In this document: piece by piece, positions 5,760-45,870 of the stretch
Numbering within the stretch: position 1 is the first letter of the stretch
How the letters are laid out: each line of letters starts with the position of its first letter
Assembly (NCBI GenBank): GCA_000169115.1
Contig: AAVV01000002.1
Coordinates: 248,001 to 312,000, forward strand
Direction of reading: 5' to 3'
From: a marine gamma proteobacterium HTCC2080
GTDB taxonomy: Bacteria; Pseudomonadota; Gammaproteobacteria; Pseudomonadales; Halieaceae
Length of the DNA stretch: 64,000 nt
Notes under the pieces: model-generated
The model's input: only the letters and a program-made list of their open reading frames with translations
Told to the model about the DNA's origin: nothing
The model's database searches: none
Made by a program: the position numbers and the translations under genes

Positions 5760-5819
5760 CTCGACAACGCGCGCGCTTGCTTCATAAAAGTCATGTGCCA
5801 GGCTTTTGTCGAGCAAGGT

Positions 5820-7313
5820 TTACTCGCTTGGCAGCCAGCCCCAGTCATCAAGCGCGGTGTTGGCCGCTAGCCACGCAAAAACCAAATAGGCGGCAACGTT
5901 TTGATCCAGATCCTGAGGTGAGATCTTGTCGAGGGTGTCATCGGGCGTGTGATGTAGATCGAAATAATCACGGCCATCTTGAACAAACCGAAATGCTGGC
6001 ATTCCAGCCGACACTAACGGTGTTAAATCCGGGCCTGAACTCGCCACATCTGCAGGTCCCGGCGCAACTCCTAAAGGCTCCACCAACTGGCTTATAAGAT
6101 CTATAAGCGGCCGTGCGCGATCGTCAACCCTGCTTGTAACTTGCCAAATTTGACCCGCTCCAAAATCGCTTTCCGTGCCAATCACGTGATTCTTAAGCTC
6201 TTGCTTACGCGACTCAAGGTAGGCTCTACCACCCAAGAGGCCTACCTCTTCGGCTCCCCATAAAATAAGGCGAATAGTTCGTCGAGGCCGTTTGCCCGAT
6301 GAGAGGATGCGACGCGCAACTTCCATCGTAATGCCAACCCCAGCACCGTCGTCTATCGCACCAGTGCCAAGATCCCAAGAGTCGAGGTGGCCGCCAATAA
6401 TCACTATTTGCTCAGGGGCAACCGCTCCACGAATATCTGCGATCACATTTCCTGACGTTACCTCACCCAAAAAACGTGGAGTTAGCAGCAGCTTTACTCG
6501 GGGCACCTTCCCCCTGGCAGCCATACGTTCGATTTGATCAGCATCGGGATTAGACAGTGCGGCCGCAGCAATTTTAGGTTGGTCAGGACTGTAGGTCATA
6601 GCCCCGGTATGCGGCATACGATGGCTGTCAGTGCCAATAGATCGAATCAATAAAGCCTTCGCGCCTTTACTCGCCGCAATACTCGCCCCCTCACGGCGAA
6701 GCCGCCCAAAGTAGCCATAATGCGAACCATTTTGGGTACTACGCATAGCGTGTCCCACGTAAGCTATTTTTCCGTCAAGGCTGCCCGGGACCGCCGATTC
6801 AAGTGCTTGCAGGCTAGTAAAAATTACGAGGTCCCCCTCCACTCCCTCGTCTGGAGTAGCGACTGACCCGCCCAAAGACGTGAGGGTTAGTGGTTGAGGA
6901 TAGGGTGAGACAACATAGCCTGTCTCAAGCCCACGCTCCCACCCAGGCAACGGAAAAGACTCCACCCAAACACGATGGAATCCAAATTCTTTCAGCGCTT
7001 CGACTGCCCAGGCACGAGCGCTCGCCTCGGAGTCGGATCCTGCCAACCTTGGCCCCACCTCGGTCGTTAAATCTTCAACCCACTGAAATGCCTTTGTCCC
7101 TGTTAGTGCATCATCTCGCAGCGCTTTTGCTTCACTGACCGTCCGGTCATCCAACCCAGAATCTGTGGTTGGCGATGACTGCCCCAACATCGCGTAACAA
7201 AAGAGGCTGACACAGACAATAAAGCGCAGGGCAAAGGCCGCGGCAGAAGGTCCCCTCAATAATTGCTCTGAATACGTGTGTAATATGCGCATGGAAAACT
7301 CATTTTCACTCAT
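5820..7313 (-). CDS. M28 family zinc metallopeptidase, exported
   Basis: A 497-residue co-catalytic zinc aminopeptidase or carboxypeptidase of family M28. A signal-type hydrophobic segment runs from about 22 to 46. The segment before the catalytic domain resembles a PA-type insert. Metal ligands are visible: H309 in GGHLDSWD, D321 in GTGAIDDGAG, the catalytic pair E355/E356 in WGAEEVGLLGG, D383 in SDFGAG and H454/H455 in FDLHHTPDDTLD. It is probably periplasmic or secreted and removes amino acids from peptide ends. The start could also be the Met at residue 8. It converges with the PilZ gene and shares no operon. Confidence 0.88.
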   Translation of the reverse strand: MSENEFSMRILHTYSEQLLRGPSAAAFALRFIVCVSLFCYAMLGQSSPTTDSGLDDRTVSEAKALRDDALTGTKAFQWVEDLTTEVGPRLAGSDSEASARAWAVEALKEFGFHRVWVESFPLPGWERGLETGYVVSPYPQPLTLTSLGGSVATPDEGVEGDLVIFTSLQALESAVPGSLDGKIAYVGHAMRSTQNGSHYGYFGRLRREGASIAASKGAKALLIRSIGTDSHRMPHTGAMTYSPDQPKIAAAALSNPDADQIERMAARGKVPRVKLLLTPRFLGEVTSGNVIADIRGAVAPEQIVIIGGHLDSWDLGTGAIDDGAGVGITMEVARRILSSGKRPRRTIRLILWGAEEVGLLGGRAYLESRKQELKNHVIGTESDFGAGQIWQVTSRVDDRARPLIDLISQLVEPLGVAPGPADVASSGPDLTPLVSAGMPAFRFVQDGRDYFDLHHTPDDTLDKISPQDLDQNVAAYLVFAWLAANTALDDWGWLPSE

Positions 7314-36472: not shown

Positions 36473-37207
36473 ATGGGAAAAGCTTCGCGTCTTTTATTTG
36501 GCCTGCTGGCATATGTCTTTTTCTTTGCCATGTTTTTATATCTGATAGCTTTTGTATCAAATCAAGTAGTACCCCGCAGCATTTCGATCGGCCCCTCTAA
36601 CGCCCCTCTCAAAGCACTGCTTATTGATCTGTTTTTGGTCAGCCTCTTTGCTATCCAGCACAGCATTATGGCGCGGCCCTGGTTTAAAGCCGCCCTCAAA
36701 AAGTACTGGCCACCGGCGATTGAAAGAAGTCTTTATGTCGTCATGAGTTCGTTGGCGCTCTACTTACTTTTTGTCTTCTGGCATCCAATTCCAACCACTG
36801 TCTGGCAGATTGAAAACAACACGCTTCGGGCACTTGTTTGGGGCACAGCAGGCTTAGGCTGGATTAGCGTTTTGATCTCGACCTTTTTAATCGACCATTT
36901 TGAACTATTTGGGCTGCGACAAATATGGTCTGACTGGAAAGACGAACCCATGCCAAACCAAGCGTTCCGCCAACCCCTCTTCTACAAACTGGTTCGCCAT
37001 CCAATTTACACGGGGTTTCTAATCGCTTTTTGGGCGTCACCCGATATGACTGCAGGCCACCTTGTGTTCTCTACTGCCATGACCGTTTACATCTTTATTG
37101 GTATTCGGTACGAAGAAAAAGACCTGCGTTCAAGCTTGGGAGACGTTTACAAGGATTATTCTCGACGGGTGGGGAAAGTAGTACCTGGCATTGGAAAAAT
37201 CAATTGA
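36473..37207 (+). CDS. mddA: methanethiol S-methyltransferase-like membrane protein (MddA/NnrU type)
   Basis: A 244-residue membrane protein with about six hydrophobic segments, of the isoprenylcysteine methyltransferase-like/NnrU superfamily. It matches MddA better than NnrU in IQHSIMARPWFK, ERSLYVVMSSLALYLLFVFW, STFLIDHFELFGLRQIW and LVRHPIYTGFLIAFW...MTAGHLVFSTAMT. MddA methylates methanethiol with SAM to give dimethyl sulfide. The C-terminal RYEEKDL motif is the family's SAM-side signature. A GC-rich hairpin at 37209-37235 follows. No other sulfur-volatile genes are adjacent. Confidence 0.7.
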   Translation: MGKASRLLFGLLAYVFFFAMFLYLIAFVSNQVVPRSISIGPSNAPLKALLIDLFLVSLFAIQHSIMARPWFKAALKKYWPPAIERSLYVVMSSLALYLLFVFWHPIPTTVWQIENNTLRALVWGTAGLGWISVLISTFLIDHFELFGLRQIWSDWKDEPMPNQAFRQPLFYKLVRHPIYTGFLIAFWASPDMTAGHLVFSTAMTVYIFIGIRYEEKDLRSSLGDVYKDYSRRVGKVVPGIGKIN

Positions 37208-37319: not shown

Positions 37320-37772
37320 TTAGGCCTGCTCTTGTACCCTGTGAAGCATAAGCTGCAGTGCATCAACGCTTTTCTCATCGTGAGCCGTCTCCAGGGCATC
37401 CTGAAGGACCTCTTGAATGTTTTCAGCGTCTACAAGCTCCATATCCCAACTGGGAAAGATACGCTCGCGAACCTCCTCATCGGTGCTTAATGTCACCATC
37501 ATTTCATGCCGACGGTCAGCTTCGATGAGCTTCACCAAGTCCATCACCTCAGCTTTGGGTCCCTCGATCCATTGGAAAAACACCCCACTACCAAAAACCA
37601 AAATTCCGGTAATTCCGAGCGCGGCATTCCGACGTCGCGAGCTTGCAATAATCGCGTCGACATCGGAACCATCAACCCCCTCACTGACTTGGCTGCAATA
37701 GACAAGATTAAAGATGAGATGCTCTTTGAAAGCATCCTCAGGATCATTGTATTGGGCTGGCTGTTTATTCAT
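37320..37772 (-). CDS. BLUF domain blue-light photoreceptor
   Basis: A 150-residue protein that is almost entirely a BLUF (FAD-binding) domain with a short helical tail. The key residues are seen: Tyr25 in LVYCSQ, Asn49 in SRRRNAALGITG, Gln67 and Trp68 in GVFFQWIEGP, and RH in EADRRHEMM. GVFFQW is very close to the AppA photoreceptor. It has no output domain, so it should act through a partner protein. The ATG at 37772 is chosen because the 18 codons upstream look unlike protein. It lies about 2.3 kb from the photolyase-associated regulator module. Confidence 0.88.
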   Translation of the reverse strand: MNKQPAQYNDPEDAFKEHLIFNLVYCSQVSEGVDGSDVDAIIASSRRRNAALGITGILVFGSGVFFQWIEGPKAEVMDLVKLIEADRRHEMMVTLSTDEEVRERIFPSWDMELVDAENIQEVLQDALETAHDEKSVDALQLMLHRVQEQA

Positions 37773-37983
37773 GGCGCAAGAATAGCGGGGAAAACAATGG
37801 AAACATAGTGAAATTGCACGTGACACATACTGAGGTGTGTCTGTTTTCTCCAGAATGCAGCGACAATGCGGAACATTAGCGGTGGCATACTTTACCGTGA
37901 CTCGCTCAGCGAATTATCAAGTAGGGATCGTCTGATGCTACTCAATTAACTGCACAAAGACATCCAGTGGCTGAGTAAAATTA

Positions 37984-38071
37984 TGGTGCCCGGAGCCGGA
38001 CTTGAACCGGCACGATCGCAATGATCGGGGGATTTTAAGTCCCCTGTGTCTACCAATTTCACCACCCGGGC
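37984..38071 (-). tRNA. tRNA-Leu (anticodon UAA)
   Basis: A class II tRNA with its 5' end at 38071 and encoded CCA at 37984-37986. The acceptor GCCCGGG pairs with TCCGGGC. The anticodon stem GGGGA/TCCCC encloses CTTAAAA, giving anticodon UAA. The long variable arm and T-arm GCCGG-TTCAAGT-CCGGC are complete. It reads UUA codons. Confidence 0.95.
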
Positions 38072-40040: not shown

Positions 40041-41048
40041 TCAACTCGACAGTTCGCGCAATAGCGAGTGATATTCCATACCCCGTTCGTCCAGCACGCC
40101 TTTGAGCGCCTTCTCCATTAAAAAACGCGCTTGGTTTGTGTAGGCATACATACACGAGTGAACAGCGGCATCCGTCCAGTTATCAACCGCGCACTCTGTC
40201 GTGTACTGCTCGAAATGATTGAGCATAGTAACCAACTCGACGATATGATTTGGGCATTCGCAATTGACTAGCCGCTTCAACTGGGCCGCCGCCGCAAGCT
40301 CGCTATCTGAATACATGCGAGCCTTTGGCTTTACCAAATCCCCCAGATCAAATTCACCCTGGCGGGTATCAGTCTCGACAGCAATTCGACCCATCTCATA
40401 TGCGAGACGTGCAGGCTCCATCGGGAAGGCAATAGCTTCAGCCCCATGACGATTTAGCTCCGAAATCCAGCGGTCATTTGCCATGCGGTAAGTCACGATA
40501 ACGTTAGGTGACCCTAGTCTCGCTCTTAGCTGTTGCACCAATTGAATTTGGGCTAACGACACCGCAGGACAGTCCAACACCAACAGCGCAATGTCTTCCC
40601 CTCCGACCTCTAACGTATCCGCAATTTCTGCAAGGGGTTGCCGGGCTAACAATGCGCTCACACCAGATATGCAGCCTTGGTGACCATCTAGCCAACTACA
40701 CAACTCTGCCCCAACAAATACGACTCTTGGTTTCGCCGCGGGTACCGCACGCTCAAGGTGCTTGCCCCGACCTTTGATAAGCAGTTCTAACGTCTTCCTT
40801 TCAGAAGACGCTACCTCTCCTATCCTCGCGCCGTCGTTAACCAACGCCGCAATTAATTGCAAATGCTCAAGATCGGCTTGGGTGTATTGCCGTCGCCCCG
40901 ATGCAGATTTGAAACTTGCTCCCAGCCCATAGCGCCGCTCCCAGACCCGAAGCGTGTCGGGTTTCAGCCCCGTTAGCCTGGCCACGGTGCCAATACCATA
41001 AAGGGGTCGAGGTTCTAGCTGACTTACTGCAGTTGCGGGGGCATTCAT
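40041..41048 (-). CDS. MerR family regulator with a flavodoxin/B12-binding-like domain and a C-terminal helical domain
   Basis: A 335-residue regulator. Residues 15-85 are a MerR helix-turn-helix (YGIGTVARLTGLKPDTLRVWERRYGL, here from 17). Residues 108-210 resemble the Rossmann-type domain of B12-dependent MerR regulators, opening KPRVVFVGAELCSW. The last 100 residues are helical, with CECPNHIVELVTMLNHFEQY and AYTNQARFLMEKALKGVLDERG. Compared with CarH/LitR, the four-helix cobalamin domain before the Rossmann fold is missing, and DxHxxG is not intact (DGHQGC). It is divergent from the sigma factor and probably controls the photolyase module. It may sense light by another cofactor, or none. 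Confidence 0.75.
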   Translation of the reverse strand: MNAPATAVSQLEPRPLYGIGTVARLTGLKPDTLRVWERRYGLGASFKSASGRRQYTQADLEHLQLIAALVNDGARIGEVASSERKTLELLIKGRGKHLERAVPAAKPRVVFVGAELCSWLDGHQGCISGVSALLARQPLAEIADTLEVGGEDIALLVLDCPAVSLAQIQLVQQLRARLGSPNVIVTYRMANDRWISELNRHGAEAIAFPMEPARLAYEMGRIAVETDTRQGEFDLGDLVKPKARMYSDSELAAAAQLKRLVNCECPNHIVELVTMLNHFEQYTTECAVDNWTDAAVHSCMYAYTNQARFLMEKALKGVLDERGMEYHSLLRELSS

Positions 41049-41076
41049 AGCACAACACTCCGATTATCTTTGTCTG

Positions 41077-41186
41077 GTTTTGTCCAAGGTTACGCTGTTC
41101 ACCCACCAACAGATCTGCTTTTCCTGGACAATAACATTCTTTGAGCGCTATTTGTTCATATTATGTCCATAAACAGCATGGACAAA
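41077..41186. promoter_or_regulatory. divergent regulator/sigma promoter region with four TTGTCCA-type half-sites
   Basis: Half-sites are TTGTCCA at 41080-41086, TGGACAA at 41125-41131, ATGTCCAT at 41163-41170 and ATGGACAA at 41178-41185. The last two form an inverted repeat with a 7-base spacer. The first two are also inverted but 38 bases apart. This is probably where the MerR-type regulator binds; MerR proteins typically bind palindromes between promoter boxes. Confidence 0.55.
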
Positions 41187-41255
41187 CTGACCCTCAGAGG
41201 GATCTTTGTACGACTTAGTCCCCGTATAGTTAGCATCAAAAGGGGGAACAAGCAC

Positions 41256-42548
41256 ATGAAAGCAACTGACCAAGCTGATGATCGCGATCTCGAGTTAATG
41301 TTTGCTGAGGCTAGGCGTTACGCCCTGCTCACCGCTGAAGAAGAACGTGAGATTGACGGGCGCAAATGGCACGCCGTCTGGACACTCCAAGAGCTATTCG
41401 CCGATGTGCCTGAACTGACACAGTACACGGCGGTTTTTCTTCAGCAGTGTGGGGCGAATCCACCAAAAATCGGGCGATTTTCCAACCGAGAACAGCACTT
41501 TGTACTGCGGCGAGAGCTTACTGATTACTTTGCAGATGGGAAGTCCCATGAATTGGCGACCGTTGCGGCGCGAAAATTGCGCACCTTGAAAACCACTCAA
41601 GCCCGACTGCCTCATCTCTCTCGCCTCAACCTTCCCGCGAGTCTTACAGTGGGTATGTCGGTTGCCATGCTGCGCCGTGCTGGCGGACAGTTTCCTGACA
41701 GTGTGGCCGATGCCATCGCCAACTGGGAGCGTCAGTGGCAACCGCCGATCAGCGGGCACGTCCTAGAGCGCGAGACGATGAAAGCTTTGCGTCGGGAATT
41801 GCGCATCTACACCGAGGCTAGGGATAAACTGGTCATGCACAACCTTCGCCTCGTTTACTCGATCGCTGGGCGGTATAAGGGGCGTGGGGTCTCCTACCTT
41901 GATCTAGTCCAAGAGGGCACGCTGGGGCTCATCCGCGCGGCGGAAAAATTTGAGTTCGAAAAGGGCTTCAGATTTAGCACCTACTGCTTTAACTGGATAA
42001 CACAGGCAGTACGTCGGTATGTGGGGGATGTGGGCACCCTAATTCGTCTTCCCACACACGTACAGGAGCAAATGGGGAGGCTGTATAAAGAGAAAGCCAT
42101 TGAACAACTGCGCACTGGGGTGGAACCCGATGAAGAAACTTTGGCCGCGAAATTAGGAATGGATATTGAGAAGACGCGTCAGCTGCTTCAGATGCGAAAT
42201 CTGGGGGTGTCGCTAGATGCGCCACGATTCGACGACGACGAAGGTACCCTTCTCGACACACTTTCTGGCGAGCCTTATGGTGGTACAGAGGATTCAGCTG
42301 AACAGGCGTCATTGCACAAATTTTTGGGCGGGGCCGTGGACGCGTTAGAGCCATCTGAACAGCGTGTTGTAGTAGCTCGGTGGGGACTGCACGATGGTCC
42401 GCCTCTAAGCCGTGCTGAAGTTGCAGACAGTTTGGGCGTCAGCCGCGAGTGGGTGAGACAGTTGGAGCGCTCAGCCTTACGAAAGCTAAAAGCCCAAGAC
42501 TCGGTAAAAGCAGCCTTTGCGGATTATAGCGAAGCCAGCAATTACTGA
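41256..42548 (+). CDS. sigma-70 family RNA polymerase sigma factor, group 2-like
   Basis: A 430-residue sigma factor with regions 2 to 4. Region 2 is NLRLVYSIAGRYKGRGVSYLDLVQEGTLGLIRAAEKFEFEKGFRFSTYCFNWITQAVRRYV (around 200-258). Region 3 includes RLPTHVQEQM. Region 4 is LEPSEQRVVVARWGL and SRAEVADSLGVSREWVRQLE. About 180 residues precede region 2 and begin with a region 1.2-like helix (LLTAEEEREIDGR); the remainder is unusual. The ATG at 41256 follows AGGGGG at a good distance. It is divergent from the MerR-type gene. Such pairs drive light- or stress-induced photolyase genes in related bacteria. Confidence 0.88.
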   Translation: MKATDQADDRDLELMFAEARRYALLTAEEEREIDGRKWHAVWTLQELFADVPELTQYTAVFLQQCGANPPKIGRFSNREQHFVLRRELTDYFADGKSHELATVAARKLRTLKTTQARLPHLSRLNLPASLTVGMSVAMLRRAGGQFPDSVADAIANWERQWQPPISGHVLERETMKALRRELRIYTEARDKLVMHNLRLVYSIAGRYKGRGVSYLDLVQEGTLGLIRAAEKFEFEKGFRFSTYCFNWITQAVRRYVGDVGTLIRLPTHVQEQMGRLYKEKAIEQLRTGVEPDEETLAAKLGMDIEKTRQLLQMRNLGVSLDAPRFDDDEGTLLDTLSGEPYGGTEDSAEQASLHKFLGGAVDALEPSEQRVVVARWGLHDGPPLSRAEVADSLGVSREWVRQLERSALRKLKAQDSVKAAFADYSEASNY

Positions 42549-42591
42549 AATTTTAGACAACCACCCCGCTGGCGCTCTCATCGAGGGCGCT

Positions 42592-43482
42592 TCAGCGCTT
42601 GCTTCTAGCCAAGATGTCGATCAGGGCGCTATCAAGACTCGAAAAACGGAAATCAAAACCGGCATCCAGCAGGCGGTGAGGGGTGACCCGCTGGCCCTTG
42701 AGCAGCAGTTCATCTGCCATTTCCCCCAGGGCCACACGCATAATGGGCGCGGGGAGACCCAGGCTGAGCAAAGTCGGTCTGCGTGCGCTCAAAACACGGC
42801 AGAACTCCCGGTGCGTGACCGGTCTGGGGGCCACAAGGTTATAAGCACCCTTGGCGCCTGCATCGGCGCAAAGATGGAGAATAGCGCGCACAACATCGGT
42901 GCGATGCACCCAGCTAAGCCACTGATTACCGTCACCCATCCAAGTGCCAATACCCAATTTGAAGGAACGCATCATCTCAGTGAGCGCCCCTCCGTTGCGG
43001 TCAAACACCACTCCCAAGCGCAAAGAAATGACGCGAGTCATATCATCCTCAACAACGCTGGCCGCACTCTCCCATGCCTGGCAGAGTTGTGCAGAAAAGC
43101 CAGATCCAGCAGGCGAAGTCTCGTCAAAAAACTGGTCACGACTACACCCGTAAAAGCCTACGGCGCTTCCCGATATCAAAACGCCAGGGGGGGTCGACTG
43201 AGCACGCATCCATCGCACCAAAGTCTCGGTGAACCCGGCGCGACTCGCCACCATTTCAGCCTTATAACTATCACTCCATCTTCGACCTGCCAAAGACGCA
43301 CCCGCGAGATTAACAACGACATCAACTGGAGATCGCACTGCGTCTAATGACTGTACAAATGACACACCGGCTCGTAGGGGCTGCTCCGAGCGCGTTAACA
43401 CTGTCACGGAAAACCCGTGTTTCAGAAGCTCAGGCACCAGTGCCGAACCGATAAATCCAGTGCCCCCCGTTACCAGTATGTG
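42592..43482 (-). CDS. TIGR01777-type epimerase/SDR (SDR39U1/YfcH family)
   Basis: A 296-residue extended SDR. The cofactor motif TGGTGFIGSALVPEL is at residues 6-20. VDVVVNLAGASLAGRRW and the region SWVHRTDVVRAILHL are family features. The C-terminal half is the typical YfcH-type RAPxxLLRxxLGEMA-like segment, seen as APIMRVALGEMADELLLKGQRV. The ATG at 43482 has GGAG nine bases upstream. It converges with the sigma gene (43 bases apart) and is divergent from sir2. These proteins recur in light-regulated clusters, but the reaction is unknown. Confidence 0.82.
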   Translation of the reverse strand, partial: HILVTGGTGFIGSALVPELLKHGFSVTVLTRSEQPLRAGVSFVQSLDAVRSPVDVVVNLAGASLAGRRWSDSYKAEMVASRAGFTETLVRWMRAQSTPPGVLISGSAVGFYGCSRDQFFDETSPAGSGFSAQLCQAWESAASVVEDDMTRVISLRLGVVFDRNGGALTEMMRSFKLGIGTWMGDGNQWLSWVHRTDVVRAILHLCADAGAKGAYNLVAPRPVTHREFCRVLSARRPTLLSLGLPAPIMRVALGEMADELLLKGQRVTPHRLLDAGFDFRFSSLDSALIDILARSKR

Positions 43483-43551
43483 CATAGCTTTTTCTCCAAA
43501 GTCTCGTGGTAGTGGCTGGCACTCACCACACTCAACCAGCGTAGGTTTATC

Positions 43552-43563
43552 CACGTATACGTG
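43552..43563. promoter_or_regulatory. perfect 12-bp palindrome in the SDR/sir2 divergent promoter
   Basis: CACGTATACGTG is exactly self-complementary and lies two bases before the sir2 start codon. Its position suggests an operator or a translation-affecting stem. No equal copy was noticed elsewhere in the window. Confidence 0.45.
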
Positions 43564-43565
43564 TC

Positions 43566-44432
43566 ATGGATAAAATAACGTCACAACTCGCTGAGTTTTT
43601 TTCGCTGTACCCCAACTGGTTAGTGCTGACCGGTGCGGGCATTAGCGCCGACTCCGGCATACCCACCTACCGTGATACCAGTGGCACATGGCTCCGCAAT
43701 CGACCCATACAACATCAGGAGTTCGTCCAACAGCGCGAATCTAGGCAACGCTACTGGGGACGCTCAATGATCGGCTGGCCCAACGTCAGGGACGCACGCT
43801 GTAATGCCAACCACAGTGCACTGGTAGATTTTGAACAATCCGGCCGATCGACCTTGGTGATTACTCAAAATGTTGATCGATTGCATCAAGCGGCTGGCAG
43901 CCAAAACGTTATCGACCTTCACGGCCGCCTTGATCGCGTCGTTTGCTTAGACTGCGGGGCGGGCTACGAGCGCGATCGTGTTCAGCAGGAACTTGAGGAA
44001 CTTAACCCCCAACACCGTGGCTTTGAGGCAATGGCCCGCCCCGACGGCGATGCTGATTTGTCCGCCGAACAGGTCCGTGATGTCAATATCTGGGACTGCG
44101 AAGTTTGTGGGGGCATGCTTAAGCCCGATGTTGTGTTTTTCGGAGGCACGATTCCAAGAGAACGCGTGACCCGCTGCCAGGAAGCTCTCACCGCAGCAGA
44201 CGGCCTGCTAGTTATAGGCAGCTCTCTACAGGTTTTTTCGGGCTTCCGATTTTGTCGGCAGGCCGTCGAACAGCGCAAGCCTCTCGTTATACTCAACGAA
44301 GGCACAACTCGCGCTGATGAAATGGCCACCCTCAAAATAAACGCTCACGCCCTTTCCCTATTTCGAGAAGTCACTTCATCCCTAGCACCTCTCATGCAAA
44401 GTCGACCTCCCCAAGGAATTAACCATGGCTAA
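43566..44432 (+). CDS. Sir2 family NAD-dependent protein deacetylase
   Basis: A 288-residue sirtuin. NAD-binding GAGISADSGIPTYRD (23-37), TQNVD (100-104) and the catalytic H119 in LHGRLD are all there. Zinc cysteines are C127/C130 (CLDC) and C178/C181 (CEVC). It removes acetyl or longer acyl groups from lysines, using NAD. The gene overlaps the photolyase start by eight bases, so translation is coupled. This is a rare neighbour for a photolyase and suggests a stress- or DNA-repair-linked role in this module. Confidence 0.9.
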   Translation: MDKITSQLAEFFSLYPNWLVLTGAGISADSGIPTYRDTSGTWLRNRPIQHQEFVQQRESRQRYWGRSMIGWPNVRDARCNANHSALVDFEQSGRSTLVITQNVDRLHQAAGSQNVIDLHGRLDRVVCLDCGAGYERDRVQQELEELNPQHRGFEAMARPDGDADLSAEQVRDVNIWDCEVCGGMLKPDVVFFGGTIPRERVTRCQEALTAADGLLVIGSSLQVFSGFRFCRQAVEQRKPLVILNEGTTRADEMATLKINAHALSLFREVTSSLAPLMQSRPPQGINHG

Positions 44433-45870
44433 TGCTTCACTGTACTGGTTTAGACACGACCTTCGTCTTGCCGACCTACCCGGCTTAATCGCCGCTGCCA
44501 AAGCGGGAACGGTTATTCCTGTTTTCGTTTGGGATGAAGCCCTAGGCGGCGATTGGAGTCTGGGGGGTGCAAGCCAATGGTGGCTGCATCACAGCCTCCA
44601 GTCGTTGGCCGCAGACCTAAACGGGCTTGGCAGCCGGCTAATATTACGTCGTGGGGAGACAAGCAAGGTTATAGCTAAGCTTCTTGAGGAAACAGGGGCG
44701 CAGAATGTTTTCGCCAGTCGTCAATACCAACCATGGGCGGCCGACACTGAAAATGCAGTCAAAGCGGTAACGGAGTCAGCGGGTGGGGACTTTAAGCGAT
44801 ACCCCGGCACCCTGCTATTCGAGCCAGAAAATATAAGAACCGGTGGCGGCACGCCCTTCAAAGTTTTTACCCCTTTTTGGCGGGCCGCGCTAAAACAGCC
44901 TGCGCCACCGCAACCTCAACCCGTTCCTTTGCTTACTAGCCCCGATGAATGGCCTCAATCAGATGCACTTAACACTTGGCAGCTGTGCCCCAAAACACCC
45001 AACTGGGCTACAGGATGGGAAGAACTTTGGAGCCCCGGAGAAGCGGGTGCAAGCGGTGCCCTACGTACATTTTTAGACAGCCATGTAGACAGTTACGGTA
45101 ATGGTCGAGACTTTCCGGCCCAACCCAATACATCGCGACTATCTCCCTATCTAAAGTTTGGAGAAATTTCTCCGCGCCAGATTTGGTGGACGGCTCAAAA
45201 TACAAAACAAAGCAACCCTGACGAAGGGAGTTCAATCGACAAATTTTTATCCGAAATTGGCTGGCGCGAATTCTGTAATCATCTGGTAGCGCAGTTTCCG
45301 GCGATGCCAGATAAAGCATGGAATCCTAAGTTTGAGTATTTCCCCTGGCAGAGCCACCAAAGGAACCTCAGCGCGTGGCAACAAGGCAACACCGGCTACC
45401 CTATTATTGACGCCGGCATGCGCGAGCTATGGCAAACAGGTTTTATGCATAACCGTGTCCGCATGGTAGTGGCATCATTTCTAACTAAACACTTACTCAT
45501 GCATTGGCGCGTCGGTGAACAGTGGTTTTGGGACTGTTTGCTCGATGCCGACCTTGCAAGCAACGCCTGCAGCTGGCAATGGGTTGGTGGCTCAGGCGCA
45601 GACGCGTCACCGTACTTCCGAATTTTTAATCCCATTGCTCAAGGAGAAAAATTTGATAAAGCCGGCATGTACACCCGTCGCTGGGTCCCTGAGCTAGCCG
45701 AACTGCCTGACAAATACCTTTATAAGCCTTGGGAGGCACCTGAACTGACGCTAAAGGCCGCAGGCGTAGAGCTGGGGACCACGTATCCGAACCCGATCGT
45801 TGACCATCGTACCGCTAGGGAAAGCGCCCTCGAAGCTTATGCGACATTGAAAAATATCGACGCGGCTTAA
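44425..45870 (+). CDS. phr: class I deoxyribodipyrimidine photolyase
   Basis: A 481-residue photolyase/cryptochrome-family enzyme, the light-driven repair of cyclobutane pyrimidine dimers with FADH-. The N-terminal antenna domain begins LYWFRHDLRLADLP (6-19). The C-terminal FAD domain shows TSRLSPYLKFGEISPRQ, LSEIGWREFCNH, GYPIIDAGMRELWQTGFMHNRVRM and DADLASNACSWQWVGGSGADASPYFRIFNP. The tryptophans of the electron chain are plausibly there. The start lies inside the last codons of sir2. It ends four bases into the cyclase gene on the opposite strand. Confidence 0.93.
   Translation: MANASLYWFRHDLRLADLPGLIAAAKAGTVIPVFVWDEALGGDWSLGGASQWWLHHSLQSLAADLNGLGSRLILRRGETSKVIAKLLEETGAQNVFASRQYQPWAADTENAVKAVTESAGGDFKRYPGTLLFEPENIRTGGGTPFKVFTPFWRAALKQPAPPQPQPVPLLTSPDEWPQSDALNTWQLCPKTPNWATGWEELWSPGEAGASGALRTFLDSHVDSYGNGRDFPAQPNTSRLSPYLKFGEISPRQIWWTAQNTKQSNPDEGSSIDKFLSEIGWREFCNHLVAQFPAMPDKAWNPKFEYFPWQSHQRNLSAWQQGNTGYPIIDAGMRELWQTGFMHNRVRMVVASFLTKHLLMHWRVGEQWFWDCLLDADLASNACSWQWVGGSGADASPYFRIFNPIAQGEKFDKAGMYTRRWVPELAELPDKYLYKPWEAPELTLKAAGVELGTTYPNPIVDHRTARESALEAYATLKNIDAA

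Follow-up and report, generated by a model that had tools for sequence, protein, structure and literature searches.

We describe a block of five genes (40041-45870) in a 64,000-nucleotide stretch of the genome of the marine gammaproteobacterium HTCC2080 (Halieaceae; contig AAVV01000002.1), the whole of which we refer to as the window and whose coordinates are used unless a contig is named. The block codes for a LitR-like MerR-family regulator, a divergently transcribed sigma factor, a short-chain dehydrogenase/reductase (SDR), a Sir2-family deacetylase, and a photolyase/cryptochrome family protein (Phr). We read it as a Halieaceae photorepair and photo-oxidative stress island in which the regulator and its dedicated sigma factor would form a gated cascade, and we give this reading a probability of roughly 58%. 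In comparisons of sequence, the regulator and sigma factor are a conserved pair, with promoter boxes resembling those of the extracytoplasmic function (ECF) group ECF11 chiefly at the MerR gene, and with an operator-like dyad specific to the pair. The block would be induced by light or singlet oxygen, with the MerR protein gating the sigma factor and the sigma factor transcribing the repair genes. A link of the block to light is plausible, and a link to vitamin B12 is unsupported.

Gene content and conservation of the block

All five genes of an initial annotation of this DNA are found at the positions it had given, and their products were assigned to families with Pfam and NCBIfam models. The MerR gene (40041-41048, minus strand; MerR_1, PF13411, 57.3 bits by Pfam) diverges from the sigma-70-family gene (41256-42548, plus strand; Sigma70_r2, r3, and r4), which is followed by the gene for a TIGR01777-family SDR oxidoreductase (42592-43485, minus strand; 302.6 bits, cutoff 207.35), that for a Sir2-family NAD-dependent protein deacetylase (43566-44432, plus strand; NF003738, 375.9 bits, cutoff 305), and phr (44425-45870, plus strand; DNA_photolyase and FAD_binding_7). 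Phr scores below all five listed NCBIfam photolyase and cryptochrome cutoffs. An 8-base overlap joins sir2 and phr, which are probably cotranscribed as an operon. Two of the listed open reading frames begin farther upstream than the likely gene starts. For the SDR gene (listed from 43554), a start at 43485 is likely because the profile match begins at residue 26. For the sigma gene (listed from 41163), the ATG at 41256 is the likely start, since alignments to the closest relatives mostly begin at residues 26 to 35 (a few start earlier, two of those across stops), a purine-rich stretch precedes this ATG, and position 41163 falls within the dyad described below.

The block recurs in the family, and this recurrence excludes a chance arrangement. 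Among 100 Halieaceae genomes, relatives of the MerR protein with similarity beyond the helix-turn-helix (HTH) are present in 62 (three entries being fragments or cut at contig ends) and the sigma factor is also present in 62; both occur in 54, MerR alone in 8, sigma alone in 8, and neither in 30 (Fisher P = 5e-11, kinship ignored). The 75 more complete genomes counted alone give 46 with both, 8 and 8 with one, and 13 with neither. The dedicated sigma factor, which the initial annotation had singled out as unusual, is thus genuinely conserved as the regulator's partner. In a synteny set of 61 loci (60 from relatives plus the window), the commonest order is SNF-type transporter, MerR, sigma, SDR, Sir2, and Phr, and MerR and sigma are divergent neighbors in 46. 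The view that the genes form one block is therefore confirmed, and the search for the same set in other genomes, where absence would have counted against it, leaves it standing.

The best 80 named loci, which overlap with the genomes of the family set, carry the names Luminiphilus, Haliea, other Halieaceae, and unclassified gammaproteobacterial, together with one Alteromonadaceae and one Proteobacteria; the nearest named relatives are Luminiphilus metagenome-assembled genomes, with a MerR protein 97% identical in locus L104. The divergent pair is present in 64 of the 80, of which 49 have SDR, Sir2, and Phr together and 58 have at least one of the three. Of the 16 unpaired loci, 6 break off no more than 650 bases upstream of MerR, 6 have a RudS-type gene (tRNA 4-thiouridine desulfidase) opposite MerR in place of sigma (L134, L165, L168, L172, L178, and L181), and 4 show neither. 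RudS-type genes also follow sigma in the paired loci L153, L159, and L160. Viewed from the sigma gene, a MerR gene is found within 6 kb in 45 of 59 loci and a Phr, DPRP, or RudS gene in 37; Sir2 lies within that distance in 37 as well, so that the sirtuin is a regular member; at least one of SDR, Sir2, Phr, DPRP, and RudS is near in 43.

ECF11-like promoter boxes

The sigmaE/ChrR (ECF11) singlet-oxygen response has the promoter consensus TGATCC-N16-CGTA (PMC5507510), and the ECF11 boxes described for Shewanella include those of ybgA-phrB and of a DPRP gene (PMC4336711). We scored boxes with an exact CGTA, a spacer of N15 to N17, and at least 4 of 6 matches at -35, with shuffled sequences as the control. 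The MerR gene has such a box in 55 of 61 loci (53 with N16), compared with 7.0% of shuffles. The box of the window, AGATCT-N16-CGTAAC (41089-41116, minus strand), matches at only 4 of 6 positions at -35; at least 5 of 6 are matched in 26 of the 61 loci. Boxes are also present at Sig in 34 of 59 loci (shuffles, 5.6%), at SDR in 27 of 44 (7.9%), at Sir2 in 21 of 45 (8.9%), and at Phr in 10 of 37 (5.3%), and at the 5-of-6 threshold 6, 14, and 7 loci are retained for Sig, SDR, and Sir2, respectively. Neighbors not expected in such a regulon have none (SNF-type transporter, 0/38; cyclase, 0/12).

Within the window, a putative sigma-gene promoter, GGATCT-N17-CGTATA (41200-41228, plus strand), is a degenerate ECF11-like box, and a candidate sir2-phr promoter is TCAACC-N16-CGTATACG (43532-43561, plus strand), with a comparable box in 21 of 45 loci. 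In the interval 43554-43566, the CGTATA element is just 6 bases ahead of the sir2 ATG, so the transcript would be leaderless or nearly so if this is truly a -10 element.

The cognate regulators are present. The HTCC2080 genome codes for ChrR (G000:C12:35800-36429; 179.8 bits, cutoff 124.5) with an adjoining ECF sigma gene, and ChrR is above the cutoff in 85 of the 100 family genomes, this one included. Among rpoE loci picked by hand from the ChrR list, all 14 outside Luminiphilus have an rpoE box matching at 5 or 6 of 6 positions. These boxes support a predicted tie of part of the block to the singlet-oxygen sigmaE/ChrR response. We note that an exact-box site (G000:C12:34985-35010) is upstream of the gene divergent from rpoE, which looks amine oxidase-like by eye only.

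An operator-like dyad specific to the pair

Between MerR and sigma, the window has the operator-like dyad ATGTCCA-N9-TGGACAA (41163-41185), noticed by sequence comparison. Its consensus, TTGTYCA-N9-TGGACAA, is matched at 12 or more of 14 positions in 22 of the 46 paired loci and in none of 920 shuffles, and the mean best score is 11.3 in paired loci versus 8.2 in shuffles. With any other spacer from 4 to 15, no more than 3 of 46 paired loci reach this score. None of 15 loci lacking a sigma neighbor does so either, L060 among them scoring 11. The half-site was itself derived from these loci, so more weight belongs to the spacing control and to the unpaired loci. The restriction of the dyad to paired loci suggests that, as predicted from sequence, it serves specific control of sigma.

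A sigma factor of its own clade

Pfam detects regions 2, 3, and 4 in the sigma factor, which in addition has an N-terminal portion of roughly 170 residues. The presence of Sigma70_r3 rejects an ECF factor such as LitS, which has regions 2 and 4 only. It is below the NCBIfam equivalog cutoffs for RpoD (206 of 555 and 204.3 of 354 bits), RpoS (179 of 378.7 bits), and RpoH (120.8 of 323.1 bits), and among 25 listed families the only cutoff passed is that of the sigma-70 superfamily model. When 29 members were placed in a tree with RpoD, four RpoS proteins, and two other sigma factors of the same genome, they formed a monophyletic clade (support, 0.94). Region 2.4 reads FNWITQAVRR, compared with TWWIRQAITR in the RpoD of the same genome, and the differences affect residues that we take to be those contacting the -10 element in Escherichia coli RpoD. 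An AlphaFold model is all-helical (pLDDT 78.6), with RpoD chains as the top Foldseek matches. A profile search at an E value of 1e-75 gave no match in 228 genomes of the class outside the family, with at most seven candidates scored per genome and absence hence unproven, and we found no publication on this sigma factor in the open-licence literature.

A LitR-like regulator lacking a detected B12 domain

The MerR protein has an N-terminal HTH, a receiver-like middle domain, and a C-terminal helical domain. The B12-binding motif is DxHxxG; sought by eye in this protein, it is absent from the middle domain. No B12-binding domain is detected by Pfam at an E value of 0.01, and the CarH model gives 38.4 bits against a cutoff of 400, from the HTH part only. 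The initial annotation had placed the regulator in the broad MerR/B12 (LitR/CarH) class. Of this, the MerR-type HTH, a feature of CarH and class I LitR, and the likeness to LitR stand, while CarH-type B12 photosensing is unsupported because no B12 domain was detected. B12-based sensing by this protein is accordingly rejected on the Pfam and NCBIfam comparisons. The top Foldseek match of the modeled structure is CarH (5c8f; E value, 1.3e-6; TM score, 0.24), and by sequence this likeness is confined to the HTH.

The C-terminal domain has a set of cysteines and histidines, C263, C265, H268, C286, and H297, which may be the best candidate for a sensor site. Judged from the helix positions, C263-H268 and C286/H297 sit at the two ends of the same helix, an arrangement that argues against a single site within one chain.

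Outside the family, a profile search finds MerR relatives in 13 of 228 other genomes of the class (up to nine candidates scored per genome). In both loci scanned with Pfam (L238 and L246), a DPRP photolyase-type gene is adjacent or one divergent gene away, and matches to Phr or RudS occur near some of the others; the 13 surrounding loci contain no match to the sigma factor of the window at an E value of 1e-6.

A proposed gated cascade and its rivals

From these elements, we propose that light or singlet oxygen would free the ECF11 factor sigmaE from ChrR and that sigmaE would transcribe the MerR gene, as the comparative promoter evidence suggests. The MerR protein would bind the N9 dyad and gate the sigma gene, probably repressing it, by analogy with LitR, until its own signal comes. 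The sigma factor, alone or with sigmaE, would then transcribe the repair genes, its own operon included, with SDR and sir2-phr perhaps among its targets through CGTATA-type -10 elements. Sensing by the MerR protein would rely on something other than a B12 site, with the C/C/H/C/H set as the candidate.

Several observations weigh against this cascade. Box sequences are degenerate at Sig, SDR, and Sir2, and in Luminiphilus several of the SDR matches (TCAACC) overlap the Sir2 coding start and may be spurious; and boxes are seldom or never present at RudS (2/12; shuffles, 7.8%) and DPRP (0/3). The rpoE gene has no box in any of 6 Luminiphilus loci. The dyad half-site was picked by eye from the loci in which it was counted. 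Nine paired loci have MerR and sigma and none of SDR, Sir2, Phr, DPRP, and RudS, and 7 of the 14 sigma loci without MerR have no repair gene within 6 kb. In the HTCC2080 genome, the box is hardly enriched and the dyad not at all. The exact box TGATCY-N16-CGTA, a pattern that misses the MerR box of the window (AGATCT), occurs at 8 sites versus 5 in the control, and the dyad at 38 versus 38, and a genome-wide regulon defined by either is rejected. For the dyad, the lack of a genome-wide excess suggests a local switch.

In an alternative arrangement, sigmaE/ChrR alone drives the block and the sigma factor is a member or a passenger serving other genes, for instance by taking over the stress role of RpoS. 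Boxes at MerR, SDR, and Sir2 also occur in loci without an adjacent sigma (L078, L080, L101, and L102), and an RpoS above the curated cutoff is missing from this genome and from 13 of 18 Luminiphilus genomes (this one included), as would fit a sigma factor serving in its stead. However, the presence of RpoS and that of the sigma factor are unassociated among the 100 genomes (44/28/18/10, P = 0.82), so we reject the sigma factor as an RpoS replacement, and the dyad, restricted to paired loci, suggests specific control of sigma and argues against a passenger. We regard this arrangement as rather unlikely. Conservation by descent without joint function seems very improbable. The boxless SNF-type transporter gene is equally syntenic (47 of 64 paired named loci) and the genomes are related, yet the shared boxes, the shared dyad, and the co-occurrence speak against descent alone, as does the finding that, in 7 of the 14 loci where sigma is away from MerR, it is still near DPRP, RudS, SDR, or Sir2.

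A direct light switch would differ from the proposed cascade in that a separate flavin photoreceptor, of the BLUF type or of the LOV type as in Pseudomonas, releases the MerR repressor. A BLUF-domain protein absent from the initial annotation is indeed encoded 2.2 kb from the MerR gene (37320-37826, minus strand; 92 bits), BLUF proteins are present in 15 of 18 Luminiphilus genomes (HTCC2080 included, with four matches), and the class II LitR protein PmlR2 is released by a short LOV protein (PMC9758184). Against this, none of the 80 named loci has BLUF beside the block (51 extend far enough to show it), BLUF is present in just 35 of 100 family genomes, and none is among the matches listed for the nine genus g27 genomes with MerR and sigma. 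BLUF as a conserved partner is thus rejected, and we consider a direct switch of this type improbable. In Luminiphilus syltensis, pigment synthesis is repressed by blue light, and a BLUF protein is suspected in C. litoralis; these reports concern pigments rather than this block (PMC3666943). We note that locus L269 codes for a small PAS/LOV-like protein (5791-6189) near a sigma gene; on visual inspection, this protein lacks the usual LOV cysteine.

In a bolder form of the gated cascade, a sigma factor particular to the family, whose -10 recognition is altered, would have been inserted between the singlet-oxygen factor sigmaE and the repair genes, under the gating of a LitR-type regulator that senses light or redox state through a cofactor held by cysteine and histidine rather than through B12. 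On this version, B12-free sensing by related regulators found outside the family would be accounted for by the same C/C/H/C/H set. We offer it tentatively and think it doubtful as a whole. If the cascade is real, the sunlight response of a widespread marine family, with Luminiphilus, Haliea, Chromatocurvus, Pseudohaliea, Kineobactrum, and Halioglobus as cultured members, uses a sigma subfamily without a curated model, and five named residues would make light sensing by B12-free LitR proteins approachable.

Other genes in the genome

A gene for the methanethiol S-methyltransferase MddA (36473-37207, plus strand; 301.6 bits, cutoff 270) is also in the window, as is a tRNA-Leu gene (anticodon taa; 37984-38071, minus strand) flanked by the genes for the BLUF protein and the SNF transporter. 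Three genes with photolyase/cryptochrome FAD domains are present on contigs C24, C22, and C25 of the HTCC2080 assembly.

Comparison with known systems

Several known systems share parts of this design. In Vibrio cholerae, the MerR-like gene VCA0056 occurs with phr and works together with ChrR in responding to blue light, although the available account of that system mentions no dedicated sigma factor (PMC5241685). The class II LitR proteins PplR1 and PmlR2 of Pseudomonas are B12-independent regulators of phrB, SDR, and RudS-type genes, but are described with the site TRTACA-N12-TGTAYA and a short LOV partner, in contrast to the TTGTYCA-N9-TGGACAA dyad here; class III LitR is reported to undergo a light-dependent absorption change without B12 (PMC9758184). 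Another mark of class II LitR is that, after the HTH, just the 4-helix bundle is retained. MerR genes on Burkholderia and Caballeronia plasmids share 27 to 28% full-length similarity and are near folE, SDR, and ECF sigma genes and, in one, a photolyase gene; their sigma factors, however, are short (~210 to 235 amino acids) and are not encoded divergently beside the MerR gene.

The regulator-sigma pair itself is, on our best reading, analogous to two systems. In LitR-LitS of Streptomyces coelicolor, a MerR-type regulator adjoins and controls a dedicated sigma factor for protective genes, as would be the case here, but that system uses B12, the ECF factor LitS, and carotenoid targets (PMC12705666), whereas the Halieaceae pair has no B12 domain found, a sigma factor with regions 2 to 4 and a long N-terminal part, and repair genes as neighbors. 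In Rhodobacter sphaeroides, sigmaE (ECF11)-ChrR similarly combines a singlet-oxygen sigmaE with a downstream alternative sigma factor, RpoHII, an RpoH homologue (PMC6852236), in contrast to a factor that misses the RpoH cutoff and is paired with MerR. The block is probably a switch that would bring on protection from sunlight damage, resembling known light switches but with a different kind of sigma factor. If the cascade is real, it would be a second sigma cascade below sigmaE, comparable with that of Rhodobacter, and a third architecture beside LitR-LitS and sigmaE-RpoHII.

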